Part shown: piece after piece, positions 8,772 to 26,023 of the stretch
Layout of the letters: the number at the start of each line of letters is the position of its first letter
Numbering within the stretch: position 1 is the first letter of the stretch
Source of the DNA: Acidobacteriaceae bacterium
GTDB taxonomy: Bacteria; Acidobacteriota; Terriglobia; Terriglobales; Acidobacteriaceae
Assembly (NCBI GenBank): GCA_030037545.1
Contig: JASHRF010000116.1
Coordinates: 1 to 64,000, forward strand
DNA length: 64,000 nucleotides
Reading direction: 5' to 3'
Translations under genes and position numbers: made by a program
Notes under the pieces: model-generated
Databases searched by the model: none
Told to the model about the DNA's origin: nothing
Seen by the model: the letters and a program-made list of their open reading frames with translations, nothing else

Positions 8772-8820
8772 GGGTGCTCCATCCTTTGCGCGTTTTTTTG
8801 CGCGAAGGATGGGAAGCCAC
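8772..8820. repeat. Short intergenic palindromic repeat (CATCCTTTGCGC family, copy 1)
   Basis: The sequence GGTGCTCCATCCTTTGCGCG, a T-run, then GCGCGAAGGATGGGAAGCCA forms a stem-loop. Related elements occur at 13772-13814 and 28721-28768, all in intergenic DNA. It is a dispersed, REP-like palindrome in the shared upstream region of hutH and gnd. Confidence 0.6.
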
Positions 8821-8845
8821 AAGCTTCAATCGACCTGCGCCGGGC

Positions 8846-8856
8846 GGTCAGACCAC
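8846..8856 (+). promoter_or_regulatory. Candidate operator GGTCAGACCAC upstream of gnd
   Basis: GGTCAGACCAC is identical to the site upstream of the uxaC operon (19228-19238) and is the reverse complement of the site upstream of the TonB receptor. It is close to a TACAAT box at 8862-8867. It may extend the hexuronate regulon to gnd, but as a single site in front of a central-metabolism gene it is the least certain member. Confidence 0.4.
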
Positions 8857-8916
8857 CCCGCTACAATGAAAGTTGCCCACCAATCGCGGTGCTACAATCT
8901 CGCTTCGGAGCACACC

Positions 8917-10377
8917 ATGCCAGACCCCACATGCGATATCGGCCTCATCGGCCTCGCCGTCATGGGACAGAACCTCGTCCTCAACATGAACGATCACGGC
9001 TTCAGGGTCGCCGTCTTCAACCGCACCGTCTCCAAGGTCGACGATTTCCTGGCCAACGAAGCCACGGGTACGCAAGTCATGGGCGCGCACTCTATCCAGG
9101 AGCTGGGCAGCCTGCTCAAGCGCCCCCGCCGCATCATGCTTATGGTCAAGGCCGGCGACACTGTGGATCACATGATCGACCAGATCCTGCCCTGCCTCGA
9201 GCCCGGCGACATCATCATCGATGGCGGCAACTCGCTCTTCACCGACTCCAACCGACGCACCAAAAGGCTCGCGGACAAAGGCATCCTCTTCATCGGCACC
9301 GGCGTCTCTGGCGGCGAAGAAGGCGCGCGCCACGGCCCCTCCATCATGCCCGGCGGCAATCCCGCTGCATGGCCGCACGTCAAGCCCATCTTCCAGGCCA
9401 TTGCCGCCAAAGTCGAAGACGGAACCCCCTGCTGCGACTGGGTGGGCGAAGACGGCGCCGGTCATTTTGTGAAGATGGTTCACAACGGCATCGAGTACGG
9501 CGACATGCAGCTTATCTGCGAAGCCTACGACCTGCTGCAGCACGGCCTTGGCCTTAAGCCCGGCGAGCTGGCAGGGGTTTTCGCCAACTGGAATACCGGC
9601 GAACTCGACAGCTACCTGATCGAGATCACCAGCCACATCTTCGCGAAGAAAGATGACGATGGCGCGCCCATGGTGGACAAGATTCTCGACACCGCCGGAC
9701 AGAAGGGCACCGGAAAATGGACCGTGATCAGCGCGCTCGACACCGGGCAGCCAGTCACGCTCATTGGCGAATCGGTTTTCGCGCGCTGCCTCTCCGCGCT
9801 CAAGGAGGAGCGCATGGCCGCGTCCAAAGTCCTCACCGGCCCCACGGCCAAGGCTGACGCCGGCGACCGCGCAACGTTTATTGAAGACGTGCGCCGCGCC
9901 CTCTACTGCTCCAAAATCGTCAGCTACGCGCAGGGCTACATGCTGCTGCGCGCCGCGGCGGCGGAGAATAAGTGGAATCTGAATATGGGCGGCATCGCGC
10001 TCATGTGGCGCGGTGGGTGCATTATCAGGAGCCGTTTCTTAGGCAAGATCAAAGAAGCCTTCGACAAAAATCCCGCCATAACGAATCTGCTGCTCGACAG
10101 CTTTTTCTCGGATGCGGTGCTGCAGTATCAGGCCTCGTGGCGCCGGGCCGTCGCCCACGCGGTCACAGTGGGCGTGCCCACTCCGGCGTTTTCTACGGCG
10201 CTCGCTTTCTTCGATGGCTACCGCACCGCACGCCTGCCGCAGAACCTGCTCCAGGCGCAGCGCGACTACTTCGGCGCCCACACCTACGAGCGCGTAGACC
10301 AGCCCCGCGGCCAGTTCTTCCACACCAATTGGACAGGGCATGGAGGCCGCGTGTCGTCGGGGACGTATAACGTGTGA
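8917..10377 (+). CDS. gnd: 6-phosphogluconate dehydrogenase, decarboxylating
   Basis: A 486-residue enzyme of the oxidative pentose phosphate pathway that converts 6-phosphogluconate to ribulose 5-phosphate with NADP. The nucleotide-binding start is IGLIGLAVMGQNLVLNMNDH, followed by the GVSGGEEGARHGPSIMPGG substrate loop and the catalytic lysine segment GAGHFVKMVHNGIEYGDMQ. The C-terminus ends TNWTGHGGRVSSGTYNV, as in full-length decarboxylating enzymes. The start at 8917 gives MPDPTCDIGLIG; longer in-frame extensions lack family similarity. Its upstream region is shared divergently with hutH and contains a palindromic repeat and a candidate operator. Confidence 0.96.
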   Translation: MPDPTCDIGLIGLAVMGQNLVLNMNDHGFRVAVFNRTVSKVDDFLANEATGTQVMGAHSIQELGSLLKRPRRIMLMVKAGDTVDHMIDQILPCLEPGDIIIDGGNSLFTDSNRRTKRLADKGILFIGTGVSGGEEGARHGPSIMPGGNPAAWPHVKPIFQAIAAKVEDGTPCCDWVGEDGAGHFVKMVHNGIEYGDMQLICEAYDLLQHGLGLKPGELAGVFANWNTGELDSYLIEITSHIFAKKDDDGAPMVDKILDTAGQKGTGKWTVISALDTGQPVTLIGESVFARCLSALKEERMAASKVLTGPTAKADAGDRATFIEDVRRALYCSKIVSYAQGYMLLRAAAAENKWNLNMGGIALMWRGGCIIRSRFLGKIKEAFDKNPAITNLLLDSFFSDAVLQYQASWRRAVAHAVTVGVPTPAFSTALAFFDGYRTARLPQNLLQAQRDYFGAHTYERVDQPRGQFFHTNWTGHGGRVSSGTYNV

Positions 10378-10600
10378 GGCCAGCTCCTAGCTTTTAGCTG
10401 CCAGCTTTTTCGCGGCGGTCCGGCCGCTGTGCTTTCGATGACACAGATGCGCGCCGGGCCCGCTGCGCGAAGAAAAACAGCGTGGCGATGCAAAGAGCGA
10501 AACTCAGCGCCAATAACGCAAAAATGCCCACTCAGGAAGATCGATCGCATTTCCATCCTCAACGCCGCGTTTTTCCGAGTCGCAGTCCTGAGCCCATGCT
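10378..10600. other. Intergenic region between gnd and kduI
   Basis: About 220 bp between convergent genes. It begins with CAGCTCCTAGCTTTTAGCTG and a nearby CCAGCTTTTT, a weak terminator-like motif that shares its core with the repeat at 7064-7083. Nothing else was recognised. Confidence 0.4.
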
Positions 10601-11431
10601 TCACCGCAGGCTTTCCACCGGCGCCGGATCCATATCGGAGTAGTCCTGGTTTTCGCCGCCCATGCCCCAGCAAAAGCTATAGGCGCGCGTGCCCACTCCG
10701 GAGTGAATCGACCACCCCGGCGAAATCACCACGTCCTTATCCGCGAGCACCAGATGCCGTGTCTCATCCGGCGGGCCCATCACATGAAACACGCGCGCGC
10801 CCGCGTCAAGATTGAAGTAAAGATAAATTTCCGAGCGCCGCATGTGCGTGTGCGGCGGCATCGTGTTCCAGTTGCTCCCCGGCGCCAGGTGGGTTACGCC
10901 CATCACCAGTTGGCAGCTCCGCGCGCCTTCGAGATGAATATATTTGCAGACGGTCCGCTTGTTGCAGGTTTCCACCGACCCCAGTTCGACCGGCTCCGCG
11001 TCTTCTTTGCGCACCAGCGTGATCGGGAACTCGGCGTGAGCCGGATAACTCAACAGGTAGTAAATCGCCGGCGTGGATTTGTCCGTCGATGAAAAGCTCA
11101 CCTCCGTATTGCCGCGCCCGATATAAAGTACGTCGAGGTTATTCAGCTTATAACTCTTGCCGCTCACGTGCACCCCGCCGCTGCCGCCGATATTCAGCAC
11201 GCCAACTTCTCGGCGCTCCAGAAAATACGTCGCGCGCAGCTCCGGATAGGTCGAGAGTTGCAGCGCGCTCTCCACCGGCGCCGCCATGCCCACTAGCGCG
11301 CGATCGAGATCGACATAATTGAGATGAATCTTCCCCGGCTCATACAAGCTGTGCAGCAGAAACGTCTCGCGCAGCTCTTCCGTGGTCATGCGCGCATAGC
11401 GCACCGGATCGGCTATCAGAATGGTCTTCAT
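10601..11431 (-). CDS. kduI: 5-dehydro-4-deoxy-D-glucuronate isomerase (KduI)
   Basis: A 276-residue cupin enzyme that isomerises 5-keto-4-deoxyuronate to 2,5-diketo-3-deoxygluconate in pectin breakdown. The metal-binding cupin motif is seen as MPPHTHMRRSEIYLYF, with the further histidine in SPGWSIHSGVG. The C-terminus WGMGGENQDYSDMDP is a family signature. The start at 11431 gives MKTILIADPVRYARM, as in other KduI proteins. It is transcribed divergently from the GH28 gene across a region carrying a perfect palindrome (11540-11554), and it works with KduD (12942-13718). Confidence 0.96.
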   Translation of the reverse strand: MKTILIADPVRYARMTTEELRETFLLHSLYEPGKIHLNYVDLDRALVGMAAPVESALQLSTYPELRATYFLERREVGVLNIGGSGGVHVSGKSYKLNNLDVLYIGRGNTEVSFSSTDKSTPAIYYLLSYPAHAEFPITLVRKEDAEPVELGSVETCNKRTVCKYIHLEGARSCQLVMGVTHLAPGSNWNTMPPHTHMRRSEIYLYFNLDAGARVFHVMGPPDETRHLVLADKDVVISPGWSIHSGVGTRAYSFCWGMGGENQDYSDMDPAPVESLR

Positions 11432-11539
11432 CGTTTGTCGCCTCGGTGTTCCAGGAGCGAAGCCATGCGAGGACCATTTCATTTTACTGCCGGGAAGAAA
11501 GACCCGGCTCGAAGGCTCGGATCGATTGAGCGCATGATG

Positions 11540-11554
11540 AGTGGTATGACCACT
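11540..11554. promoter_or_regulatory. Palindromic operator AGTGGTATGACCACT between kduI and GH28
   Basis: A perfect inverted repeat, AGTGGT-ATG-ACCACT. Half-sites TGGT/ACCA are typical of FadR/UxuR-type GntR regulators (family knowledge). Related sites lie in front of the uxaC operon, the regulator gene, the TonB receptor and gnd. It overlaps a possible -35 region (about 11546-11551) 18 bases before a TATGAT box at 11570-11575 for the GH28 gene. Confidence 0.7.
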
Positions 11555-11614
11555 GCGGGCCGGATCGCGTATGATGATTGGCGCAACGCATCCCGATGCC
11601 GAGAGGCCGTTCCC

Positions 11615-12922
11615 ATGACGCAAACCCTGCTTTCACTCAGGCGCCTGCCGTTGCATGCTGGCGCCGCCTTGTTTCTGCTCGCAACCGGCGGCTCTCTGCA
11701 CGCATCGGGAGTGTGCGATCCGCGCGCTTACGGCGCCAAGGGCGATGGGACCACGAAAGACACGGCGGCGATTCAAAAAGCCATTGACGCGTGCGAGGCG
11801 CAGGGTGGCGGCACGGTGCGCCTGACGGCGGGCACCTATCTGAGCGCGCCCATCGTGCTCAAGAGCAACATCATGTTCGAGCTCGACAAGGGCGCCACGC
11901 TGCTGGGCTCTCCCGATCACGCGGATTATCCGGAGAAGATCGAATTCCGCGAGCCCGATTTGCAGCCGCTGGTGAGCGCGACAGACGCCTCGAATATCGC
12001 GATTACCGGCGAGGGAACGATTGACGGCAACGGCGCAAGCTGGTGGGCGGAGGCGCGTGGCATGCGCGACCACGGCGTGCTGGGCAGTCATCCGCGGCCC
12101 AAGCTTATCATTTTCGATCATTGCAAGCGCGTGCGGGTGGAAGGCGTCACCATTCAGAATTCACCCATGTGGCACCTGGTGCCCTACTATTCCGACGATG
12201 TTGTGATTCGCGATGTGCGCATCCTGGCGCCGCAGCACTCGCCCAACACCGATGCCATCGACCCGTTTTCGTCGTCGCATGTGACCATCGATCACGTGTA
12301 TTCGAACGTCGGCGACGACAATGTGGCCATCAAGTCCGGCGCCATCAATTCGCCGGGGCCGGACGCGCCCAGCCGCGACATTACCATTTCCGACTGCACC
12401 TTCATGCACGGCCATGGGCTTTCGATTGGGAGCGAGATTGCAGGCGGCGCGCAGAACATCACCGCGGAGCGTATCGTCTTCCAGGGAACGGACAACGGAA
12501 TCCGCATTAAGGCCAATCGCGACCGCGGCAGCGATGTGAGCCACATTGTGTTTCGCGACATCACAATGAAAGACGTAAGGAATGCGCTGATTATCAGCGA
12601 GTATTACCCGAAGGTGATGCCGCCCGAGGACAACACTGCACAGCCCGTAACGCGATTGACGCCGCATTTCCACGGCATCCTGATCGAGAACCTGATAGCG
12701 ACGGAAATCGGGACGGCGGGGGCGATTGTGGGACTGCCGGAGTCGCCAGTGACGGGTGTGGTGCTGCGCAATGTGCAGATTGGCGCCGGGACCGGCTTGA
12801 CCGTGGGCTATGCGAGCGTGATGGGGCAGAACGTGAAGATCTTTGCGCCGCGAGGGCCGGCGATTATCAAGCTTGCCGGTGCGGAAGTGACGCTGCGGCA
12901 AATATCTGATCCCTGGAAATAA
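11615..12922 (+). CDS. Glycoside hydrolase family 28 (polygalacturonase-type) exported enzyme
   Basis: A 435-residue right-handed beta-helix enzyme that hydrolyses polygalacturonate or related rhamnogalacturonan chains. The four GH28 motifs are all present: SPNTDAIDPF (NTD), VGDDNVAIKSG (DD), GHGLSIGSE (GHG) and NGIRIKANRD (RIK). An N-terminal signal peptide (LHAGAALFLLATGGSLHASG) follows the ATG at 11615, so the enzyme is exported. The start is chosen because it places the signal peptide correctly. Neighbours supply uptake (TonB receptor, transporter) and catabolism (UxaC, UxaE, KduI, KduD). Whether it acts endo or exo cannot be told from the sequence. Confidence 0.93.
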   Translation: MTQTLLSLRRLPLHAGAALFLLATGGSLHASGVCDPRAYGAKGDGTTKDTAAIQKAIDACEAQGGGTVRLTAGTYLSAPIVLKSNIMFELDKGATLLGSPDHADYPEKIEFREPDLQPLVSATDASNIAITGEGTIDGNGASWWAEARGMRDHGVLGSHPRPKLIIFDHCKRVRVEGVTIQNSPMWHLVPYYSDDVVIRDVRILAPQHSPNTDAIDPFSSSHVTIDHVYSNVGDDNVAIKSGAINSPGPDAPSRDITISDCTFMHGHGLSIGSEIAGGAQNITAERIVFQGTDNGIRIKANRDRGSDVSHIVFRDITMKDVRNALIISEYYPKVMPPEDNTAQPVTRLTPHFHGILIENLIATEIGTAGAIVGLPESPVTGVVLRNVQIGAGTGLTVGYASVMGQNVKIFAPRGPAIIKLAGAEVTLRQISDPWK

Positions 12923-12941
12923 TGCTGCTGCGAACGCCTGG

Positions 12942-13718
12942 TTACTGGTTCACGCCGCTGGCCAGGAATCCGCCGTCCACCGCCAGGATGTGGCCGGTGA
13001 CGAACGAAGCGCTGTCGGAGGCTAGGAAGACGGCGGCGCCGATGAGCTCGTCGGTTTTGCCAAAGCGGCCCATGGGAGTGCGCATCAGCAGTTCCTGGCC
13101 GCGCGCGGTCGAGTCGAGCAGCTTGGCGTTGAGGTCGGTGCGGAAGACGCCGGGCGCGACGGCGTTCACCGTGACGCCTTTTTTCGACCACTCCACCGCC
13201 AGCGATTTGGTGAGCGAAGCCACGCCGGACTTGCTGGCGGCGTAGGCGGCCACTTCGCTGAGCGAAATAAAGCTGTTGAGCGAAGCGATATTGACGATGC
13301 GGCCGTAGCCGCGCTCCAGCATTGGTCGCCCGAAAACCTGGCAGGCGCGCAGCGTGCCGGTAAGGTTGGTATTGAGGATGCTGGTCCATTCCTGCTCAGA
13401 AAAATCGAGGGTGGGCGCGCGCTTGATGATGCCGGCGCAGTTGACCAGGATGTCGATTTTGCCGAAGCGATCGAGGACTGCTGCGGCCAGTTTTTCGAGC
13501 GTGGCGCGGTCGCAAACGTCTGACGCCAGGCACAGAGTTTTGCGGCCCAGGGCCTCAATGGCGGCAGCGGTTTCATCCACTTGCTGCTGGCGGCGCGCGG
13601 TTGCTACTACGTCCGCACCGGCTTCCGCCAGGCCCAGGCTGAGTGCGCGGCCAATGCCGGAAGTGCCTCCGGTGACGACCGCGATTTTTCCTTCCAGGCT
13701 GAATAAATCGGCTTTCAT
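12942..13718 (-). CDS. kduD: 2-dehydro-3-deoxy-D-gluconate 5-dehydrogenase (KduD), SDR family
   Basis: A 258-residue short-chain dehydrogenase with the TGGTSGIG nucleotide-binding motif near residue 17, NCAG, and the catalytic Ser-Tyr-Lys in NIASLNSF and YAASKSG. It reduces 2,5-diketo-3-deoxygluconate to KDG, following KduI. The assignment as KduD rather than a generic SDR rests on the N-terminus FSLEGKIAVVTGGTSGIG, the ending GHILAVDGGFLA and the context with kduI and GH28. It is the last gene downstream of uxaE, separated by 135 bp that hold a palindromic repeat. It converges on the GH28 gene with only 19 bp between stop codons. Confidence 0.88.
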   Translation of the reverse strand: MKADLFSLEGKIAVVTGGTSGIGRALSLGLAEAGADVVATARRQQQVDETAAAIEALGRKTLCLASDVCDRATLEKLAAAVLDRFGKIDILVNCAGIIKRAPTLDFSEQEWTSILNTNLTGTLRACQVFGRPMLERGYGRIVNIASLNSFISLSEVAAYAASKSGVASLTKSLAVEWSKKGVTVNAVAPGVFRTDLNAKLLDSTARGQELLMRTPMGRFGKTDELIGAAVFLASDSASFVTGHILAVDGGFLASGVNQ

Positions 13719-13771
13719 GCTTTCTCCGTGAACATCGACGACCCGGCGATCTCCTTCTTTTAGCTTTGTGG

Positions 13772-13814
13772 TTTCCACCCTCGCGCAAAGAACGCGCAAG
13801 GATGGGGAGCCCAA
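13772..13814. repeat. Short intergenic palindromic repeat (copy 2)
   Basis: CCACCCTCGCGC, a short A-rich loop, then GCGCAAGGATGGGGAGCCCA. It is related to the elements at 8772-8820 and 28721-28768. It lies between uxaE and kduD and may reduce read-through between them. Confidence 0.55.
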
Positions 13815-13853
13815 GATGGTGATCGGCAACCACCATGGTACAGGAAGAAGCGA

Positions 13854-15167
13854 TCAGCGACTTTGTGCTGCGGGAGCGTTCTGCTTCATGCTGATGGCGT
13901 CGCTCACGCCCAGGAAGACTGGCGCGATGTGGCGATTGTAAAGATTCTCCGTGACGTTCCGGGCGATGACGGCTTCATTGGCTTCGAGCAGGTCGAGATA
14001 GCGGCGCCCCATTCTGGCGGCCACTTTGAAGCCCACGTGCAGCAACTGGCGAACGCTGCTGTTATACTCCGGCGCGCCCTCCACGTGGCGCAAGGCGGAG
14101 GTGTACTGCTCTGAGGTCCAGCCGCGGACTTCGGCCGCGGAGGGCAGCTTGGCGGGATCGATGTCGATGACATTCGCGTATGGGCCGCAGAGCTCTTCGC
14201 GGTGCGCCAGCGCCTCGGCGTAAATTTCCTTGGCCAGCGCCAACCCCTTACCGCCAGCTTCGGCTAGGCCGATCAGTTCTTCAAGCCATGTGGTTCCCGC
14301 AGTCTTCAGGTGCATACCGGCGCCGGTGTGCTGCATGATGGCATGAATGGCGGGATAGATGGAGAATTTGTCGCTGCCGGAATGAATGCTGAGCTTGAGA
14401 TCGGCGGGCAAGCCGTATTCCTGCACGGCGTGAGCGATGGCGGCCACGTCGAGCGTCATCTCGCGCTCGAACTGCGGCACGTTGCCCACGTAGTCGACGC
14501 CCTTGTTGAATCGGCCGCTGAATTTGGGCGCGATGGTCTGCACCGGAATGCCTTCATCGGCGATGGCGGCGAGGATGATGAGCAGCTCCACGGGGCTTTG
14601 CGCGCGATCCGTCTCATCCATGGAGACTTCGGGGATGAAGCCGCCGGCGCCTTTCGCATTTTCGACTTTGCGGTAAACCTCGCCGGCCTTTTTCACTGCA
14701 GCCAGGAATTTGTGAGCGGTCCGGCGGACGGTTTCGGCAGTGATGGTGAAGGGCTCCTTCACGCCGGCGAGATGAATGTTCCCGGTCAGCTCGGGATGAC
14801 GGCGTAGGAAGATATCGATATCGACGGCCGGCGCAGGCTGGCCGATGAAGTCGGCCACGTCGATGGTGAAAAAGTCGCAGGAGTCGAGGAAGCGATCGAC
14901 GGTTTCGCTGGTGATGTGGTCGGCGTCGCAGAACCACGGCGACTTCCAGCCCAGCGCCTTGACAGCGGCCTCCGCGGCGTGGAGCACGGAGGCAGGGTCG
15001 GACCCGATGATCGTGTGCTCGCGATTCGATTTGTTCCACACGGGAACGATTTCGAGGCCGTGGTCGAGGGCCTGGATGCATGCCCGGAGCTGGGCCTTGG
15101 CCTGGTGCGCGAACCGGTCGCCGGTTCCAACGGAGTATTTGCTCAGGGTTTTGTTTTGACGGGCCAT
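13854..15167 (-). CDS. uxaE: Tagaturonate epimerase (UxaE family)
   Basis: A 437-residue protein matching the UxaE family, first characterised in Thermotoga, which interconverts D-tagaturonate and D-fructuronate. This lets galacturonate breakdown enter the glucuronate branch. Recognisable segments are KYSVGTGDRFAHQAKAQL, FFTIDVADFIG, GGFIPEVSMDE and LSIHSGSDKFSIYP, which include the likely metal and substrate ligands. The ATG at 15167 has AGGAG seven to eight bases upstream, inside the stop region of the preceding gene (gap of three bases). It follows uxaC, a transporter and a LarA-like gene on one strand, so UxaC would supply its substrate. No uxaB or uxuB is in the window. Confidence 0.88.
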   Translation of the reverse strand: MARQNKTLSKYSVGTGDRFAHQAKAQLRACIQALDHGLEIVPVWNKSNREHTIIGSDPASVLHAAEAAVKALGWKSPWFCDADHITSETVDRFLDSCDFFTIDVADFIGQPAPAVDIDIFLRRHPELTGNIHLAGVKEPFTITAETVRRTAHKFLAAVKKAGEVYRKVENAKGAGGFIPEVSMDETDRAQSPVELLIILAAIADEGIPVQTIAPKFSGRFNKGVDYVGNVPQFEREMTLDVAAIAHAVQEYGLPADLKLSIHSGSDKFSIYPAIHAIMQHTGAGMHLKTAGTTWLEELIGLAEAGGKGLALAKEIYAEALAHREELCGPYANVIDIDPAKLPSAAEVRGWTSEQYTSALRHVEGAPEYNSSVRQLLHVGFKVAARMGRRYLDLLEANEAVIARNVTENLYNRHIAPVFLGVSDAISMKQNAPAAQSR

Positions 15168-15170
15168 TTT

Positions 15171-16445
15171 TTACTCCTGCTCGAAGCGGCTGCGGTGCGC
15201 CCACAGGCCGAGTCCGGGGTTGGCGACGAAGAAGATCGATTCCCCACCGACCTGGTTGAATCCGTGTCGCAGTTTTTGGGGGTTGTAGCGGCGAAGCTTG
15301 GTTTTCAGATCGCCGTAGGCGTAGCCCGCTGCCTCGACTTCCGCCTGACTGAGATGCCCGGGACACCAGGTGATTTTGAAGCGGCCTTCCGACGAGGCGT
15401 GGATGAGATGCGCGGCGGCGCTCAGATCGGCGGCCAGATCCGCATTCTCCTTCACAGCCTTGAGCGTGGCCGGCGTGCCGCGGTAACCGTACTTGCGGAT
15501 CAGGGCGTCGATACCCTTGTCTTCGCCGAACTCGTGCACGCCGGGGGCGAGAATGATCAGCTCGGCATTGTCGGCCAGCGCCATGCGCGTGCGATAAACG
15601 GCCTTGTTGCCGATCCAGGTGCTGTGAAACTCGTTTGGATCGAGATAGACCACGGCTTTGCGAATGGGCTCGTCGACCATTTCGAAATTGACTTTGAGGC
15701 TGAGCGCGGCGGCGCGCAGAAAGCATTCGGGATCGTCGCCGATGAAGAGACCGCGCACGGCCAGGCCGCCTTCGGGTTTGCGACCGATGACGGTCAGCAC
15801 GTAAACAATAGGCAGGTGGCGGAGAAAACGGTCGGACGCGCAGTTGAGCACGTTGCGCACGGGATTTTGCGCGCGGCCCATGATGCGCTCCATGCCGTAG
15901 ACCGCGCCCAAGTAATGGCTGCGGTTAATGCTGTCGCGGCCGCCGGCTCCGATCAAAATATTCTTGGTGTAGTTGGCCATGCCGATGACTTCGTGGGGCA
16001 CCACCTGGCCGATGGAGAGAATGAGATCGAAGCCGCCCTGGGAAATGAGGCGGTTGACCTGCGCGGGCCAGGCGTAATCGAGCTGGCCCTCGGACTGCTC
16101 GCGAATGTAGGCGGCGGGAATTTCGCCCAGCGTCTCGATGCCGGTGCGCCAGTTGTGGACGCGAAAAAGCTCTTGCGGAACCCCCTCGAACATGCGTGCG
16201 ATCTGATCGGGGCGCATGGGCGTGTGGGTGCCGATAGCGGGCAGGACGGCTTTGAGGCTATCGCCGTAGTGTTCAAAGGCATAGCGCGTCAGTTCGCCGG
16301 CGCGCGAGTGCTCGCGGCTTTGATCGGGCGGGACGGCGAGGACGCTGCGGCGCGGGCCGAGCTTGCCGAGCGCTTCAACGAGCAGCTCCTGCAAGTGCGG
16401 CGACAGATCAGCGCCGGCATTTCCCTGGGCACAGTAAAGGCTCAT
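15171..16445 (-). CDS. LarA-like nickel-pincer-cofactor racemase/epimerase (DUF2088 family)
   Basis: A 424-residue member of the lactate racemase LarA superfamily. The residues that bind the nickel-pincer nucleotide in LarA appear conserved: His74 in IGTHTPM, His151 in VVPHEVIG, Lys161 in NYTKNILIG and His177 in INRSHYLG. The spacings 151-161 and 161-177 equal those of LarA His174-Lys184-His200. The start at 16445 overlaps the stop of the transporter gene as ATGA, which indicates translational coupling. LarA homologues act on various 2-hydroxy acids, including sugar acids such as gluconate (family knowledge). In this operon a uronate or aldonate epimerisation is likely, but the substrate is not known. 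No larB, larC or larE is in the window. Confidence 0.82.
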   Translation of the reverse strand: MSLYCAQGNAGADLSPHLQELLVEALGKLGPRRSVLAVPPDQSREHSRAGELTRYAFEHYGDSLKAVLPAIGTHTPMRPDQIARMFEGVPQELFRVHNWRTGIETLGEIPAAYIREQSEGQLDYAWPAQVNRLISQGGFDLILSIGQVVPHEVIGMANYTKNILIGAGGRDSINRSHYLGAVYGMERIMGRAQNPVRNVLNCASDRFLRHLPIVYVLTVIGRKPEGGLAVRGLFIGDDPECFLRAAALSLKVNFEMVDEPIRKAVVYLDPNEFHSTWIGNKAVYRTRMALADNAELIILAPGVHEFGEDKGIDALIRKYGYRGTPATLKAVKENADLAADLSAAAHLIHASSEGRFKITWCPGHLSQAEVEAAGYAYGDLKTKLRRYNPQKLRHGFNQVGGESIFFVANPGLGLWAHRSRFEQE

Positions 16446-17749
16446 GCGGCAATCCTCGCTTTTTTCAGCCCTGGCGCAAGCAAACCAATGCACAGCCACG
16501 CCACCAGGTAGGCGCAAGCGGCGATTACAAAAAGGGGCGCATAGGTATGCATATATTGGAGAATCAAGCCGGCGGCGGAGGCGATGAGTGCACCGCCGAC
16601 CGCGCCGGCCGTGCCGCCGATGCCCGTCACCGAGGCGACTTCAGTGCGCGGGAACATATCTGAGACAGTTGTGAAGAGGTTCGCGGACCATCCCTGGTGT
16701 GCAGCGGCGGCCAGGCTCAGGAGGCCGATAGACGTCCACTCGGTGTGCGTATAGGAGGCCAGATATATGGGAACGACAGCCAAGGCACAAACCAGCATCG
16801 CGGCCATGCGCGCGCGTGTAACCGGCATGCCCACTGTACGGAATGGCGCCGGCAGCCAACCGCCGAAGATGCTGCCTACAGTGGCGCCGGTGTAGACAAC
16901 GATAAGCGGCAGGCCGAGAGTGGAGAGCGTGAGGTGGAACCTGGTGGTGAAGAAAGACGGCAGCCAGTAAAGATAGAACCACCAGATGGGGTCGGTGAGA
17001 AACTTGCCGGTGAAGAATGCCCAGGTCTGCCGGTACTTAAATAATTTGAGCCACGGCGTGCCGGGCTTAAGCTTTTCCGTCATGCCCTCATTGATATGTT
17101 CGAGCTCGGCGGGACGGAGTCGGGGATGCTCGGCGGGCTTGCGGTAAAAGAAAAACCACAACACCACCCAGGTGGCGCTGAAGATCCCGGTGATGAGAAA
17201 GCCTGCATGCCAGCCGTAGTGCAGCGCGACCCAGGGCACGGCGAGGGGAGCAAGAATGGCGCCCAGGTTGGTGCCGGAGTTGAAAATCCCGGTGGCCAGT
17301 GAGCGCTCTTTCTGCGGGAACCACTCGGCCACAGTCTTAATGGCGACGGGGAAGTTGCCGGACTCGCCGAAACCGAGGCTGAAGCGGGCGATGCCGAACT
17401 CGAGAACCGTATTGGCCAGCGCATGTCCCATGGCGGAGAGGCTCCACAGGCCCATGACCACGATGTATCCGATGCGCGTGCCCACCTTGTCGATCAAGCG
17501 GCCCATGACCAGCATGCCCACCGCGTACGCAATCTGGAAAGCGTCTACGACGTAGGCGTAATCCAGCTCCGACATGCCAATGCTGTGCTGGATGGTGGGC
17601 TTGAGCAAGCCCAGCACCATGCGATCCATGTAGTTGAGCGTGGTAGCGGCGAAGAGCATGGCGCAGACGGTCCAGCGCACGTTGCCGATGCGCGCGCCCA
17701 TCGAGCTATCGCTCACTGCTTCCATCTCCGCCGCCGATTTCGTTTCCAT
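16442..17749 (-). CDS. MFS transporter, hexuronate (ExuT-like) anion:cation symporter family
   Basis: A 435-residue major facilitator with about twelve membrane segments. The N-terminal part contains LNYMDRMVLGLLKPTIQ, the sugar-acid transporter signature of the ACS family, and the GRLIDKVGTRIG loop between helices 2 and 3. The FGESGNFPVAIKTVAEWFP segment is typical of hexuronate, glucarate and galactonate permeases. It lies 23 bp after uxaC and overlaps the LarA-like gene by four bases, so import of galacturonate or glucuronate into the cytoplasm is the likely role. The start at 17749 gives METKSAAEM; longer in-frame extensions are not hydrophobic and not family-like. Confidence 0.9.
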   Translation of the reverse strand: METKSAAEMEAVSDSSMGARIGNVRWTVCAMLFAATTLNYMDRMVLGLLKPTIQHSIGMSELDYAYVVDAFQIAYAVGMLVMGRLIDKVGTRIGYIVVMGLWSLSAMGHALANTVLEFGIARFSLGFGESGNFPVAIKTVAEWFPQKERSLATGIFNSGTNLGAILAPLAVPWVALHYGWHAGFLITGIFSATWVVLWFFFYRKPAEHPRLRPAELEHINEGMTEKLKPGTPWLKLFKYRQTWAFFTGKFLTDPIWWFYLYWLPSFFTTRFHLTLSTLGLPLIVVYTGATVGSIFGGWLPAPFRTVGMPVTRARMAAMLVCALAVVPIYLASYTHTEWTSIGLLSLAAAAHQGWSANLFTTVSDMFPRTEVASVTGIGGTAGAVGGALIASAAGLILQYMHTYAPLFVIAACAYLVAWLCIGLLAPGLKKARIAA

Positions 17750-17772
17750 GCGCGCTTCCCGAACCGCTCTGT

Positions 17773-19185
17773 CTAAAGTCTGTAAGCTTTTTTCGCCAAG
17801 CCGTAGGTCAGGTCGTGAGCCACTTCGTGGGCTTCGTCCTCCTCGAGCCTGTGCTCGGCGACCAGGCGGGCCAGGAAGGCGCAATCGACGCGACGCGCCA
17901 TGTCGTGGCGGGCGGGAATGGAGAGGAAGGCGCGGGTGTCGTCGTTAAAGCCCACCGTGTTGTAGAAGCCCGCGGTTTCCGTGGCCAGCTCGCGAAAGCG
18001 CATCATGCCTTCGGGGCTGTCGTGAAACCACCACGGAGGGCCGAGGCGCAGGCAGGGATAATGACCGGCCAGCGGCGCCAGCTCCCGGCTTATGGTGGAC
18101 TCATCGAGCATGAAGAGGATGATGGTGAGGCCGATCTCGTTGCCGAAGCGGTCAAGCAACGGGCGCAGCGCGTCGACATAATTGATGGCGCGCGGTATAT
18201 CCGCTCCCATGTCGCGGCCGTAGCGCTCGGACACAAAGCGGTTGTGGTTGCGCACGCTCCCCGGGTGAATCTGCATCACCAGTCCGTCTTCCACGCTCAT
18301 GCGCGCCATCTCGGTGAGCATCTGTGCGCGGAACAGCTCCTGCTCGGCCGCAGCGGATTTTCCCGAAATGACTTTCGCGAACAGCGCGGCAGCTTCCGAT
18401 TCTGGCAGATCGGCCGTTTGCGCGCTGGGATGGCCGTGGTCGGTGGCCGTGCAGCCAAGGGCGCGGAAACGGGCGCGTGCCTTGGCCAGTGCGTTCAGAT
18501 AGCCCTTCCACGTCAAAGCGTCTTCGCTGGTTTGCTCGCCCAGCTTGGCGATGCGTTCCCCGAAGCCGGGGAATTCGGGATCGACGACGGGATCGGGCCG
18601 GAAGGTGGGCAGAATACGAGCATTGCCGCGCGGCTTCCAGCCGGAATCACGAATGGCCTGGTGATCAGCGAGCGAATCGAGAGGCGAATCGGTGGTCGCC
18701 AGCACTTCAAGATGGAACTGCTCGTACAGAGCGCGAGGCAAAAATGATGGCGTGCTCAACTTTGCGGAGATGGTGTCGAAGTAGAGGTCGGCGGATTGTT
18801 CTGAGAGCCGCTCCTCCAGGCCGAAGAGCTGTTGGAAGGCGTAGTCAAGCCAGATGCGCGTAGGCGTGCCGCGAAACAAATAGTAATGGCGGGCAAAGAG
18901 GTGCCACACGCGCCGCGGGTTGCGGATGACGGGCTGCCCGATTTCCAGATCGTCCATCGAGACGCCCTGGCTGTACAACATGCGGAAGACGTAGTGATCC
19001 GGTTGCACGAAGAGCGTGGCGGGATCGGGAAACGGTTGATTGCGGGCAAACCAGCCGGCCTGCGTATGCCCGTGCGGGCTGATGAGGGGCAGGTTCGAAA
19101 CCTGCTCGTACAATGCGCGGGCAATGTTGCGCACCCCGGGTTCGGCTGGAAACAAGCGATCCGGATCGATCAACATGGCTTTCAT
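17773..19185 (-). CDS. uxaC: Glucuronate/galacturonate isomerase (UxaC)
   Basis: A 470-residue amidohydrolase-fold isomerase that converts D-glucuronate to D-fructuronate and D-galacturonate to D-tagaturonate. Family segments are LISPHGHTQAGWFA (metal-binding HxH), WKPRGNARILPTFRPDPVVD, and GLVMQIHPGSVRNHN. WWFHDSPEGMMRFRELA and AFLSIPARHDMARRVDCAFLA lie near the C-terminus. The start at 19185 gives MKAMLIDPDRLFP. It is the first gene of the operon that continues with the transporter, LarA-like and uxaE genes. A promoter with an overlapping palindrome lies just upstream (19226-19268). Confidence 0.95.
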   Translation of the reverse strand: MKAMLIDPDRLFPAEPGVRNIARALYEQVSNLPLISPHGHTQAGWFARNQPFPDPATLFVQPDHYVFRMLYSQGVSMDDLEIGQPVIRNPRRVWHLFARHYYLFRGTPTRIWLDYAFQQLFGLEERLSEQSADLYFDTISAKLSTPSFLPRALYEQFHLEVLATTDSPLDSLADHQAIRDSGWKPRGNARILPTFRPDPVVDPEFPGFGERIAKLGEQTSEDALTWKGYLNALAKARARFRALGCTATDHGHPSAQTADLPESEAAALFAKVISGKSAAAEQELFRAQMLTEMARMSVEDGLVMQIHPGSVRNHNRFVSERYGRDMGADIPRAINYVDALRPLLDRFGNEIGLTIILFMLDESTISRELAPLAGHYPCLRLGPPWWFHDSPEGMMRFRELATETAGFYNTVGFNDDTRAFLSIPARHDMARRVDCAFLARLVAEHRLEEDEAHEVAHDLTYGLAKKAYRL

Positions 19186-19226
19186 CTTACCCCGTGAAGA
19201 GCATGGCGCAGGAGGACCTCCCGCTG

Positions 19227-19238
19227 AGGTCAGACCAC
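19227..19238. promoter_or_regulatory. Operator AGGTCAGACCAC between uxaC and the FCD regulator
   Basis: GGTCAGACC is an odd-length palindrome whose flanks match the consensus seen at 11540 and 20301. It lies immediately downstream of the predicted uxaC -10 box (19240-19245, minus strand), around the expected transcription start. That position fits repression by the adjacent GntR/FCD regulator. Confidence 0.7.
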
Positions 19239-19239
19239 A

Positions 19240-19268
19240 AGTATACACGTGATGCCGGACAACGTGAA
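19240..19268 (-). promoter_or_regulatory. Predicted sigma-70-type promoter of the uxaC operon
   Basis: Read on the minus strand, TTCACG (-35) and TATACT (-10) are separated by 17 bases. The -10 box is followed directly by the operator GTGGTCTGACC. The start codon of uxaC is 55 bases downstream of the -10 box. Confidence 0.6.
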
Positions 19269-19290
19269 TCGAATTTTGCGCGCAAGAAAC

Positions 19291-19320
19291 TTGGGCGCGC
19301 CGCGCTTTTGGTGTTAATCT
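19291..19320 (+). promoter_or_regulatory. Possible promoter of the FCD regulator gene
   Basis: TTGGGC and TAATCT are separated by 18 bases, 44 bases before the likely start codon. The shared operator at 19227-19238 lies about 60 bases upstream. Confidence 0.35.
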
Positions 19321-19363
19321 CGTTTTGCCCTCAGAAAATAAGGGAAGTCGAAAGGTGGCAGCC

Positions 19364-20137
19364 ATGATGCGGCGCACGAAACCTGACCAGCCCGATACCC
19401 ATCGCACCCAGCAGGTGGTGGACCACATTCGTTCGCTGATCGAAAACGGAACCCTGCAGCCGGGGGACAAAATACCGCCGGAGCGGGAGTTTGCGCGCGC
19501 CCTGAAGATCAGTCGCGCCAGCCTGCGCACCGGTATCGGGTACCTGGCGGCCATGGGGGTGATGAAGGTCAAGCACGGGGTGGGAACGTTTGTGGCCGAT
19601 GGCCCCGCGGAGTTCGGCAAGGCGTCGCTGAGCCTGATGGGGGCGCTGCACGGATTCCAGTCGTGGCAGATGTTCGAGGCGCGCATGATCCTGGAAAGCC
19701 AGGTCGCGGCGCTGGCCGCGGAGCGCGGTAAGGAAGAGCATCATGCCGCCATGTCCGAAGAGGTAGCCGAGATGTTCGCGGCCATGGACGCGCCTGCCGA
19801 CTATCTGATTCACGATGTTCTGTTTCACCGCATTATTGCGCAGGCCTCCGGCAATCCTATCCTGGCCGCGCTTTCCGAGACCATCACTTCGGCGCTCTAT
19901 GACAAGCGGCGCAAGACCGTGGAGCGGTCCACGGACTTGCGCGAATCGGCGGAGATGCATCGCGAGATCTATCGCGCCATCCGCGCGCACAAGCCGGCGG
20001 AGGCGCGGCGTTTGATGGAAGAGCATCTGCGCATGGCCAAGGAGGCGCAGGTCATGGAGCGCTCTGCGGAGCGCCGGCCTGCGGCGCCTGTCCGGTCGCG
20101 AGCGGGACGGGCGGAGCTGCGGGCAAACCTGACCTGA
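19364..20137 (+). CDS. GntR-family transcriptional regulator, FadR/UxuR (FCD) type
   Basis: A 257-residue regulator. Residues 12-80 form the winged helix (QVVDHIRSLIENGTLQPGDK, PPEREFARALKISRASLRTG, GVMKVKHGVGTFVA). Residues 100-230 form the FCD ligand-binding domain with the usual metal-coordinating pattern, including VLFHRIIAQASGNP and ESAEMHREIYRAI. It is divergent from the uxaC operon and precedes the TonB receptor, and palindromes with TGGT/ACCA half-sites lie on both sides. It is therefore the probable repressor of the hexuronate/pectin genes, with a uronate-derived inducer (inference). The start could be 19364 or 19367; an upstream TTG at 19325 lacks a ribosome site. Confidence 0.9.
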   Translation: MMRRTKPDQPDTHRTQQVVDHIRSLIENGTLQPGDKIPPEREFARALKISRASLRTGIGYLAAMGVMKVKHGVGTFVADGPAEFGKASLSLMGALHGFQSWQMFEARMILESQVAALAAERGKEEHHAAMSEEVAEMFAAMDAPADYLIHDVLFHRIIAQASGNPILAALSETITSALYDKRRKTVERSTDLRESAEMHREIYRAIRAHKPAEARRLMEEHLRMAKEAQVMERSAERRPAAPVRSRAGRAELRANLT

Positions 20138-20456
20138 CCCGCTCCGGAGGGGAACTGGTCGAACCAGGCCCGCGGCAGGTTTTCGTACAAATCCCCAATA
20201 ATCAACCCATTCACGGCATTCGAACCAATTGCCGGTCCCCGATTACATTCCTGTTGACAAGAGTTCATGGTCTGAACGAAACTGGTAGGCGTTTCTAAGT
20301 GGTCTGACCTTTGACGGGCCAAGCGCCACGAGACAACCGCTCAGAGCGCCTGCCCGCCGACGAAGGGCTCCCGCGTGATGCAGCCGCTGCCAGGCGGCTG
20401 CTGCGTATCGGCATCGACTGAATAAACGCAGAAGAAGTCTCTCTATGGAGGAAACC
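20138..20456. other. Regulatory intergenic region upstream of the TonB receptor
   Basis: About 320 bp without a gene. It contains the operator at 20299-20310, a weaker similar sequence GGTCTGAAC at 20269-20277 exactly 32 bases upstream, and a TTGACA hexamer at 20254-20259. No clear -10 box at 17-bp spacing was seen. Confidence 0.5.
20299..20310. promoter_or_regulatory. Operator GTGGTCTGACCT upstream of the TonB receptor
   Basis: This is the exact reverse complement of the site AGGTCAGACCAC in front of uxaC. It lies about 145 bases upstream of the receptor start and likely links outer-membrane uptake to the same FCD regulator. Confidence 0.65.
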
Positions 20457-23400
20457 ATGACGCAAGTTGTAACTGGAAAGCATGGGGAAGGCAGCAGCTC
20501 TCTACACGACGAAGCCTCGACCCTTTGCGTAAAGAGTCCTTGCACCTCTCATCGCAACCGTGAAGGTTGGAAAATCCCCGGCGCGGCTCTGCTGGTGGCG
20601 CTCTCGTTTCTCTTTCTTCTCGCCCCACGAGCCTTTGCCCAGGAGTTTCGCGCCACTGTCAGCGGAACAGTGACTGACACCACCGGGGCGGTGGTTCCGA
20701 ACGCCAAAATCGAGGTGCGCGAAGCCAGCACCGGCGCCGTCAGCGCCACAGTCAGCGATGCCGCCGGCCAATACAACGTACCCTTTCTGCTTCCCGGACA
20801 CTATGCGATCAAGGTGACCGCCAGCGGCTTTGCGACTCTGACCCGCAACGGCATCTCGTTGCAGGCGCAGGAACACCCCATCATCGATCTGGTCCTCAAA
20901 GTAGGTTCGGCCAATTCCACGGTCACCGTAACCGGCGCAGCGCCGCTGCTCAATCAATCTGGCGCCACTATCAGCGACGTTATCTCCACCGCGTCGGTTG
21001 CCGACCTGCCTCTCAACGGCCGTGCCCCCATGATGCTGGCCGAGCTTTCGCCTGGCGTCGAAACCGAGGCCGCTCCGCAAATCTCCCACCCCTTCGACAA
21101 CAACAACATGAATTCGTTCAGCATCGGCGGCACGCCGTTGCAAACCAGCGAAGTGCTCGTGGATGGCTCTCCCGATGAGACCATGCTCGGCTCGCTGGCC
21201 TTCAGCCCATCTGAGGACTCAGTAGCGGAAGTCTCAGTCCAGCCCTTCGCCACTGACGCCTCCTTCGGCCACACCATCGGCGGGGTGATGAATCAGGTCA
21301 CCAAGAGCGGCACCAACAATCTGCATGGCACCGCCTACGAGTTCATTCAGCTCCCCAACCTCTACGCCAATACCTATTTTGACGACCGCAACGTCCCGGT
21401 TACCCCGCTCCCGAACACTCGTTTCAACCAGTATGGTCTGACCGCGGGCGGTCCTATTTGGATTCCCAAAGTTATCAACGGCAGAAACAAGCTGTTTTGG
21501 TTCTTTGCCTGGGAAGGACTGAAGGACAAAACGCCTGCGACGACTTCGTTGACCGTCCCCACGGACGCGGAAAAAGAAGGCGACTTCAGCGCGCTGCTGC
21601 CACTGCAAATCACCAACCCGACTCAGCTCTATCAAATCTATGAGCCGGGGACAGGATCAGACTCGAGCGGCACGATTTCGAGCCGCACCCCGGTTCCGAA
21701 TAACTGTCTCACCAATCAATCGAGCTATTGCTCTTCTGCGACAGGCGGAACCGCCGGGTACACGCTCGACCCCGTTGCCCTGAACTACCTGAAACTGTAT
21801 CCGGAGCCAAACGCCACGGCCGAGCAAAAGGATGACGGCGCGGACAACTACCTTAGCAATGCGCCCAGCGTGGACAATTACAACGAAGAATTCGGGCGCC
21901 TCGATTACAACGTCAGCTCCAGCGATCACCTCTTCTTCGATTTCCGCGCGAATCACCGCTCCCAAGTCAAGGAAGATTACTTCAACAACACCAACGGCTC
22001 GACCCTCATCCGCCAGAATTGGGGCGGCACGCTGGATAACGTTTACACCATGAATCCCTCGACGGTTTTCGATGTCCGCCTCAATTGGACCTTCTTCTAC
22101 GAAGCGCACGATTCGCCGGCAAGCCTGTCTTCGGAAACGCCAACCGCGATGGGATTCAGCGGCCTGCCGAATTCCGCCCTGCCCTACGTGGAGTTGCCGG
22201 TCGTCAAATTCAACAGCAGCAGCTTTGAGGATTTCAACAACACGGCCTCGCCCAGCTACGATCCGACTACGAGCTACCAGGTCTTTGCCGACATGCTGAA
22301 GACCCACGGCAAGCACTCGCTGAAGATCGGCTTCGACGGCCGTCAATACCGCATGAGAATCCGGAACTTCGACAATGGAGCCAGCCCTTCAGGCGAATTC
22401 ACCTTCGGTAACAGTTGGGTCACGGAAGGAACCGGCGAGCCAAGCCAGACCTTCGGCGGCGATCTGGCATCGTTCGAGCTGGGCTTGGCGCAAACCGGCA
22501 ACGATGGCCTCGATCTGCAAGCCAACGGAGACTATCGCGCGTACTACATCGGAACCTTCGCCCAGGACGACTGGCGGCTGAATCAGCGCCTGACGCTGAA
22601 CTTGGGCGTCCGTTTCGATATTGGCACGCCTTTCGGCGAGAAGTTCGGGCGCACCATTAGCGGATTCAACCTGACGGCGACCAACAGCGCTTCGGGAGCC
22701 CAGTATAACCCGGCCGACTCTGTGACCCTGACCAATTATGGCAACGCAACCTACACCGTAAACCCGACCGGATTCAACACCCTGGGAGGAGTCACCTTCC
22801 CCAGTTCCGACTGGGGCGCGCCTTACCAGATCGAGGATAAAACCGGTTTCTGGAGCCCGCGCATCGGCTTCTCCTACAATCCATCATGGCTCAAAGACAG
22901 CATGGTGGTACGCGGAGGCTTCGGCATCTTTGTCATGCCGCAAACGCTGTCGAGCCTGAACGCGTCCGGCACGGTCTCCTCCAATGCGCAAAGCTTCCAG
23001 TCGGGCTTCAGCGCATCCACAACTTACACCGCGTCGACCAACAGCTACTACACCAACTGCACCTCCGGCAGTACTGCCAGCCCCGGTCTCTGCTCCGGCA
23101 GTTCCGCGTTTACGTTCGACAATCCCTTCCCGAGCGGCTTCGAACAGCCGACTGGTTCCTCGGAGGGCGCCAGCACTTTCCTCGGAGAATCCATCAGCTT
23201 CTTCGCTCCTGTACAGCACGACGCTTACTCCGAGCGCTGGAACCTGGGGGTGCAGAAGCAGATCACCCCGTCCACTCTGATCGAGGCCATCTACGTGGGC
23301 AACCATGCACTGCATCTGACTGCCAACGACTTGAGCGGCTCCGAGCAGAATCTCAATGCCGTCGAAAAGCAGTACATGAACACCAATCCTTACCCGGATT

Positions 23401-25910: not shown

Positions 25911-25953
25911 TTGCCCTTGCGCCCCGCGCCGCTCGGTGCGGACGGTAAAGGGG

Positions 25954-25980
25954 AGGTCCCAATTCTGGATTTTGGGACCT
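25954..25980. repeat. Perfect 9-bp inverted repeat between the flavoprotein and kinase genes
   Basis: AGGTCCCAA (25954-25962) and TTGGGACCT (25972-25980) form a stem with a nine-base loop in the 113-bp gap inside the presumed operon. No long T-run follows, so an RNA-processing, regulatory-protein or weak attenuation role is possible. Confidence 0.5.
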
Positions 25981-26023
25981 GGGAGAGCACGAACTCAATT
26001 AGCAATATCATCGCTTCAACGGC

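Follow-up and report, generated by a model that had tools for sequence, protein, structure and literature searches.

A palindrome in an Acidobacteriaceae pectin and hexuronate gene cluster is a probable operator of the FCD-type GntR regulator encoded beside it

We analyzed a stretch of 64,000 nucleotides from an Acidobacteriaceae bacterium (the window; positions 1 to 64,000 of contig JASHRF010000116.1, assembly GCA_030037545.1), in which genes for the breakdown of pectin and the use of hexuronates are accompanied by copies of a short palindrome and by the gene of a GntR-family regulator with an FCD domain at 19364-20137. The palindrome, GTGGT(C/A)TGACC(AC), is very probably the operator of this regulator, which would repress the pectin and hexuronate genes. 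We computed the conservation of the sites, their co-occurrence with the regulator in trans, the set of target genes and the position of the site in the uxaC promoter. Genes were identified with Pfam and NCBIfam profiles; a KduD-like short-chain dehydrogenase (SDR) and a major facilitator superfamily (MFS) gene did not reach the NCBIfam cut-offs, and for these only the kind is named. The genes and sites of the cluster are as follows, with scores from the position weight matrix (PWM) described below.

8843..8857, minus strand: operator-like site GGTGGTCTGACCGCC, about 60 bp upstream of gnd in the divergent hutH-gnd region; PWM 16.6
8917..10377, plus strand: gnd, decarboxylating 6-phosphogluconate dehydrogenase; TIGR00873 783 bits, cut-off 426.7
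10601..11431, minus strand: kduI, 5-keto-4-deoxyuronate isomerase; NF002091 383 bits, cut-off 250
11540..11554, plus strand: operator-like site AGTGGTATGACCACT, 60 bp upstream of the GH28 gene and 108 bp from the divergent kduI; PWM 20.3
11615..12922, plus strand: polygalacturonase-family protein of glycoside hydrolase family 28 (GH28); PF00295 171.8 bits
12942..13829, minus strand: KduD-like SDR, last gene of the uxaC operon; kduD profile 271.6 bits, below the cut-off of 338.85
13854..15167, minus strand: uxaE, tagaturonate epimerase; PF16257 173 bits
15171..16517, minus strand: nickel-pincer putative hexonate epimerase (LarA superfamily, group 18); NF052594 620.9 bits, cut-off 500
16442..17884, minus strand: MFS hexuronate-type transporter; PF07690 203 bits
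17773..19185, minus strand: uxaC, uronate isomerase, first gene of the operon; NF002794 553.5 bits, cut-off 387
19225..19239, minus strand: operator-like site TGTGGTCTGACCTCA, 39 bp upstream of uxaC
19364..20137, plus strand: GntR/FCD (FadR-type) regulator, proposed repressor, with orthologs in relatives; PF07729 93.1 bits, cut-off 24.3; PF00392 57.3 bits, cut-off 27
20298..20312, plus strand: operator-like site AGTGGTCTGACCTTT, 132 bp upstream of the TonB-dependent receptor; PWM 18.7
20445..24338, plus strand: TonB-dependent receptor-like outer-membrane protein; CarboxypepD_reg and OMP_b-brl_4 domains

Exact copies of GGTCANACCAC stand at 8846(+), 11541(-), 19228(+) and 20299(-), and all four sites, read here in the GTGGT orientation, are intergenic. 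An earlier reading of this DNA, made from the letters alone (the sequence-only reading), had placed the copies at 8846 and 19228 and a longer form at 11540-11554 exactly and the fourth at 20301, two bases off; the longer form, described there as perfect, indeed has perfectly palindromic outer arms of 6 bp, around a non-palindromic centre, ATG. Three of the four had been assigned to genes, and to these we add that the remaining one, at 8846, lies 60 bp before gnd, which starts at 8917. With at most one mismatch, GGTCANACCAC matches the window 7 times where 2.62 matches are expected, and none of 100 shuffles reached 7; a loose 15-mer (at most three mismatches, both strands counted) has 6 against 2.35, which 2 of 100 shuffles reached. 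A match at 21432, inside the receptor gene (PWM 14.8), was taken as chance. The home genome (4.17 Mb, 88.7% complete) contains GTGGTNTGACC 9 times and the reversed pattern twice, and 4 of the 9 fall within a stretch of 11.5 kb, so that the random scatter through the genome named beforehand as evidence against a regulon was not seen; the binomial probability of this clustering, 7e-9 for the given stretch, is circular, because the pattern itself derives from these sites. Not circular is the sole further GTGGTCTGACC in the genome, an out-of-sample copy on contig 10 directly before a pectate-lyase/rhamnogalacturonase-like beta-helix protein, which matches PF12708 (Pect-lyase_RHGA_epim) and PF13229 and lacks a GH28 match at E up to 1e-5. 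As to the remaining four exact matches to GTGGTNTGACC, one (L018) is within a coding sequence, and the other three (L019-L021), whose free position is G or T, fall by visual reading inside open frames of other kinds or at their ends.

The relatives provide a larger sample. Among 200 genomes of the order, 96 have a match to the regulator (E up to 1e-30), and in a first set of 40 regulator neighbourhoods taken from among these 96 genomes (725,811 bp), GTGGTNTGACC occurs 32 times, in 22 of the 40 loci, while the reversed pattern does not occur; 500 permuted patterns averaged 1.7 occurrences, with 23 as the highest. A second set of 52 loci (of 80 fetched), non-overlapping with the first, gave 48 occurrences, again none for the reversed pattern, and a mean of 1.7 and a maximum of 12 for 200 permutations. 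The PWM was built solely from five sites of the home genome and applied at a threshold score of 14, at which shuffled DNA yields 0.4 matches per 64 kb. At this threshold, a site precedes the regulator in 23 of 25 loci that have uxaC nearby and in 3 of 15 that do not, and the two misses (L081, L092) have a weaker site at the equivalent place. In the genus of the window, 17 regulator-bearing genomes contain 22 GTGGTNTGACCAC sites, spread over 12 of the 17 and with A or C at N in every case, and 10 regulator-free genomes contain 5, of which 3 have A or C; the reversed control gives about 5 and about 7, respectively (hand-summed). In this one genus, where the counts were split, the excess of GTGGTNTGACCAC is confined to the regulator-bearing genomes. 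A G+C-rich palindrome that recurs near related genes by chance or composition would agree with the shuffles that reach the loose 15-mer count, with TGGTNNGACCA alone, which is not enriched in the home genome (13 against 53 for the control), and with the 13-mer, which is not enriched over the whole order. We nevertheless give this explanation practically no credence, as it runs against the permutation controls, against the conserved island found in the uxaC promoters and against the co-occurrence in trans, and is already contradicted by the trans test.

For that test, we considered genomes in which uxaC is unlinked to the regulator and the regulator ortholog is at least 70% identical to that of the window. 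Because uxaC lies away from the regulator in these genomes, linkage and function can be told apart. A site stands before uxaC in all seven of them, with scores of 15.9-18.3 (an eighth candidate, G194, was left out, its uxaC being 5'-truncated). Regulator-free genomes with uxaC, meaning those with no match at E up to 1e-30, have a site before uxaC in 0 of the 27 examined, made up of every such genome of the same genus (9) and of 18 out of the 30 from elsewhere in the family, and the best score among them is 7.3 (7/7 versus 0/27; Fisher p 1.9e-7). The seven positives span three genera (g1, g6, g7), and, their species being related, the events are not fully independent. Since many relatives keep the word together with the repressor and lack it without the repressor, the palindrome is very probably the docking site of this protein. 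An improbable alternative is that the sites belong to another regulator, an FCD/GntR paralog or a second factor, and that the neighbouring FCD gene is a linked passenger: the home genome has 14 first-look FCD-like candidates, one of them matching at E up to 1e-30, and TGGTNNNACCA is a general FadR-type core. However, the uxaC site follows this particular ortholog even when the two are unlinked, and it is absent from nine genomes of the same genus that have uxaC but not this regulator.

The regulator itself is a GntR protein of the FadR type. Both its GntR and its FCD domain score above the cut-offs, and an AlphaFold2 model (mean pLDDT 79.4) has a winged helix followed by an FCD domain of seven helices (88-97, 100-121, 124-139, 144-161, 165-188, 192-207 and 211-236); the all-helical effector domain has seven helices in the FadR group and six in the VanR group. 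In 30 sequences, the recognition-helix residues S50, R51, S53, L54 and R55 are invariant, as are D151, H155, H199 and H221, and FCD regulators have a metal-binding set of D and H residues. Operators of FadR/FCD proteins are palindromes with a TnGTnnnACnA core, a pattern that fits the candidate operator TGGTCTGACC(A), itself conserved in 24 aligned uxaC promoters. Two copies of the regulator per genome, 71-82% identical to that of the window, were seen in G185, G208 and G220, and at L094 two copies flank one hexuronate cluster.

The layout of the uxaC promoter bears on the sign of the control. The TATACT -10 box that the sequence-only reading noticed beside the uxaC site is confirmed: it occupies 19240-19245 of the minus strand and lies one base upstream of that site. 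Aligned with 23 others, this promoter shows a single conserved island, TGTATACTT-GTGGTCTGACC-TC, within DNA that has otherwise diverged. The alignment was anchored on the site, and the anchor itself favours the core; outside the anchor, each base of a -10-like box is kept in 12 to 18 of the 24 promoters, and C at +12 in 24 of 24. The operator thus comes right after the -10 box and over the expected transcription start, which is where a repressor classically sits and favours repression, as a bound protein would there block RNA polymerase. We therefore propose that a dimer of the regulator would bind the palindrome as its operator and so repress three sets of genes: the GH28 enzyme, the contig-10 beta-helix protein and the TonB-dependent receptor, which would serve pectin breakdown and uptake; the operon of uxaC, the MFS transporter, the nickel epimerase, uxaE and the SDR; and gnd. 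A sugar acid derived from pectin would release the repressor. In this scheme, physical binding, repression rather than activation and ligand control are what we infer. An activator, or a mixed regulator that activates some targets and represses others, is unlikely, though less so than a different regulator. It would suit the sites before the GH28 and TonB-receptor genes, which are 81-225 bp from the matched coding start and may stand in other relations to the promoter, but in about two thirds of the 24 sequences the uxaC site directly follows a -10-like box, and in several gnd upstream regions the site is just upstream of a TACAAT/TAGAAT-like box.

To define the members of this putative regulon, we scanned the upstream regions of orthologs (identity at least 45%) for sites scoring at least 14 within 300 bp. 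In the first set, a site was found before 22 of 26 uxaC genes, 13 of 17 GH28 genes, 4 of 4 TonB receptors and the single gnd (1/1), and before 3 of 20 nickel epimerases, 3 of 19 MFS genes, 1 of 25 uxaE, 0 of 24 kduD and 0 of 2 kduI. The second set gave a similar list: 27/29 for uxaC, 12/16 for GH28, 3/5 for gnd and 1/3 for kduI, with 3/25 for uxaE, 0/23 for the nickel epimerase, 0/17 for the MFS gene and 0/18 for kduD. Several of these genes are mostly internal to the operon. We rejected kduI as a member, as 4 of 5 upstream regions have no site scoring at least 14 and six loci checked separately, two of which overlap the five, have none (0/6). By the comparison of orthologs, the 11540 site is thus that of the GH28 gene and not of kduI, even though kduI shares the intergenic region; the sequence-only reading had assigned it to kduI/GH28.

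Sites away from the cluster point the same way. We fetched 30 of the 106 places at which GTGGTNTGACCAC occurs in the order, 25 of them in regulator-bearing genomes. Sites were found there before GH28 genes (L146, L149, L151 (weakly), L156, L163, L172), a pectinesterase-like protein (L154), TonB-receptor-like proteins (L153, L156, L157, L158, L160, L164), UxaE (L159), uxaC (L171), the nickel epimerase (L161), MFS genes (L155, L173), the regulator (L170, L173) and gnd (L148), where gnd and the regulators were read from the sequence. In the regulator-free genomes (L167-L169, L174, L175), the 13-mer had no such neighbours by a reading of open frames, with no family search made. In another genus, a PfkB-family sugar kinase lies directly behind a perfect GTGGTCTGACCAC site (L165 in G199, L166 in G112); it is possibly a 2-keto-3-deoxygluconate (KDG) kinase, and given these sites the KDG branch may be co-regulated in that genus. 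Taken over orthologs and distant copies, uxaC, GH28 and TonB receptors are the predicted conserved targets, with gnd in some lineages. The proposal of a pectin and hexuronate regulon under this FCD regulator is supported by promoter conservation, by the trans counts and by these off-cluster targets.

A number of observations weigh against the assignment of the palindrome to this regulator and its proposed targets. With one mismatch allowed, the home genome has 52 matches against 125 for the control, and the excess exists at the exact level only. Over all 200 genomes, the count of GTGGTNTGACCAC is 106 and that of its reversed control about 111 (control hand-summed), and the word is therefore not generally enriched. 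At L106-L111, where orthologs of 61-64% identity lie beside an MFS gene, the site precedes the regulator in 0 of 6 loci, and in four genomes of genus g3 (ortholog 61-63% identical) the site before uxaC is absent, with 1 of 2 genomes of genus g8 having it; the regulon, and perhaps the operator too, seems to have changed in L106-L111 (genera g3, g8). Genes inside the operon seldom have a site of their own, as the counts for the nickel epimerase illustrate, and 4 of the 25 off-cluster sites (L147, L150, L152, L162) have no recognised pectin gene adjacent. A home-genome match at C20:10652 (PWM 14.6), before an operon of a YjhG/YagF-type dehydratase and an MFS gene, looked like a new target; 29 relatives were examined, and 0 of the 27 that were readable had a site scoring at least 14 there (best 11.4), so the match is treated as chance or genome-specific. 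Finally, the gnd site tracks the regulator weakly: it is found in 8 of 17 genomes with the regulator and in 1 of 8 without (p 0.18). Orthologs in the 61-64% identity range include those of Edaphobacter and Granulicella, among others.

The gnd survey covered 30 loci, of which five (L204-L208) were without a 5' end and one genome (G051) gave no start; G122 and G185 were added. The site lies at -54 to -86 in G000, G217, G223, G139 (two copies), G167, G159, G186, G122 and G185; the position is comparable in several Terracidiphilus relatives. Without the two added genomes, the tally is 6 of 15 with the regulator against 1 of 8 without, and the single regulator-free genome with a gnd site, G217, is 80% complete. 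In the window, gnd lies inside the cluster. By these counts, some lineages have gnd in the proposed regulon, the correlation being weak. The two gnd copies of G139 (L190, L209) each have an operator-like site at -78. The regulator-free genomes G191 (L187) and G190 (L194) have look-alikes upstream of gnd, GAGGTCTGGCCGC and AGATCTGACCACT, as though these had been decaying since the regulator was lost, and in G202 (69% complete, no regulator match, L221 without a strict site) gnd comes about 40 bp after the SDR in the uxaC operon. In the region 8782-8857 of the window, the gnd site also precedes a divergent open reading frame (ORF), which we take to be hutH, histidine ammonia-lyase-like, and G217 is arranged alike (L222).

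We compared the system with known ones. E. coli FadR has the same domain layout and a TGGTCnGACCA-like core, but it controls fatty-acid genes, and the regulator scores below the FadR cut-offs (40.2 versus 189 and 35.4 versus 249.2 bits). It also fails the NCBIfam equivalog cut-offs for UxuR (57.7 versus 442 bits) and ExuR (53.2 versus 396 bits), and the UxuR consensus has a shorter TGGT..ACCA spacing than the sites here. A profile of the regulator orthologs matches 3fms/3sxy, presumably TM0439 of Thermotoga maritima, at E ~1e-7 and 34 bits, a remote similarity. In the accessible text of PMC12288454, UxuR and ExuR are likewise FCD-type GntR repressors of hexuronate genes, and E. coli DgoR is a GntR/FadR sugar-acid repressor whose operators overlap the promoter of a sugar-acid operon; the DgoR operator core is TTGTAGTACAA, that of the window TGGTCTGACCA, and its effector is D-galactonate. 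The closest parallel in gene content is the UxaR (TM0439) regulon of T. maritima, which, according to the part of PMC3750489 that was available, includes gnd, uxaE, gntE and gntK. There, too, a GntR-family regulator has a conserved motif in several copies over pectin and galacturonate genes, and gnd, uxaE and a gluconate/mannonate epimerase (gntE) are joined with pectinases. The same excerpt describes an ATP-binding cassette transporter where the window has an MFS gene and a TonB receptor, and a gntK in the locus, which was not found linked here; the motif of Thermotoga is one of 17 nt, and the comparison covered gene content and protein. Another pectin regulator named UxaR, from Caldicellulosiruptor, is of the DeoR family (PMC8579813, seen in excerpt). 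A described regulon for acidobacterial pectin use was not found in the literature searched, which left out most subscription journals. On the comparative evidence, we consider the regulon real and new, of an already known kind (a FadR-type sugar-acid repressor) and parallel to the Thermotoga UxaR.

The composition of the cluster raises the question of which metabolic route is controlled. We tentatively suggest, as a possibility that we would sooner doubt than accept, that a single repressor of the Acidobacteriaceae links the hydrolysis and uptake of pectin with a galacturonate route that is non-canonical and by-passes mannonate dehydratase. Galacturonate would be converted to tagaturonate by UxaC, to fructuronate by UxaE, to mannonate by the SDR and to gluconate by the group 18 nickel-pincer epimerase (putatively), and gluconate, once phosphorylated, would enter the pentose phosphate pathway via Gnd. 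The co-regulation of gnd and the group 18 epimerase may suggest such a route from galacturonate over mannonate and gluconate to the pentose phosphate pathway, without proving it. The SDR is possibly a fructuronate reductase; it reaches 236.9 against PRK08277 (D-mannonate oxidoreductase), below the cut-off of 281. The transporter scores 228 bits against a D-galactonate-transporter subfamily, below the cut-off of 395, and its probable start, read from the ORF, is ~17749, while that of the nickel-pincer epimerase is ~16445.

Other results argue against the route. GntK was not found above the TIGR01313 cut-off in any of 40 genomes of the genus (weak matches in 8), nor was the TIGR01314 cut-off passed in any of them (weaker FGGY homologs in 39 of 40), and the FGGY loci fetched have a strict site in 0 of 12. 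The step from gluconate to 6-phosphogluconate therefore has no named kinase. Moreover, the home genome has a UxuA-type protein (C109), which passes PRK03906 (218, cut-off 191) and fails TIGR00695 (153.5, cut-off 199.6), and its presence disfavours the by-pass in this genome. PF03786 has no match in the regulator-bearing genomes G056, G071, G093, G100, G185 and G194 and is matched in 11 other regulator-bearing genomes of the genus, the home genome included. According to the available part of PMC7583248, LarA groups 19 and 20 convert D-mannonate into D-gluconate, and group 18 is supposed to act on a hexonate. The 15171-16517 protein is a member of group 18 by its NF052594 score; what differs here is its co-regulation with gnd. 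Homologs of gntE have been noted in Acidobacterium and Terriglobus in PMC6978723, which, in the portion consulted, refers to Rodionova 2012 for the route and presents a Lactobacillus variant of it. As far as these partial texts go, the route is thus already in print (PMC3750489, PMC6978723) and the idea of it is an earlier one; what was not found in the literature searched is any account of control by this repressor in the Acidobacteriaceae. If the route were true, the co-regulation of gnd and the epimerase would constitute regulatory evidence on what LarA group 18 acts on, and the gene set of the Thermotoga UxaR regulon would have evolved in parallel under a remotely related FCD regulator.

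The trans evidence for this pair of regulator and operator is strong, a matrix is ready to use, and the regulator is present in named isolates (Terracidiphilus gabretensis, which also has a site, Silvibacterium bohemicum and Acidipila rosea), which makes the proposal directly testable, and the evidence of co-regulation bears on an uncharacterised group of nickel enzymes. Acidobacteria commonly take part in the breakdown of plant litter in acidic soils and in peat. Beyond the receptor, at 24432-27676 of the window, we noted ORFs for a cyclic-nucleotide-binding-like sensor kinase and for a response-regulator/thioredoxin-reductase-like fusion, both by ORF reading only.

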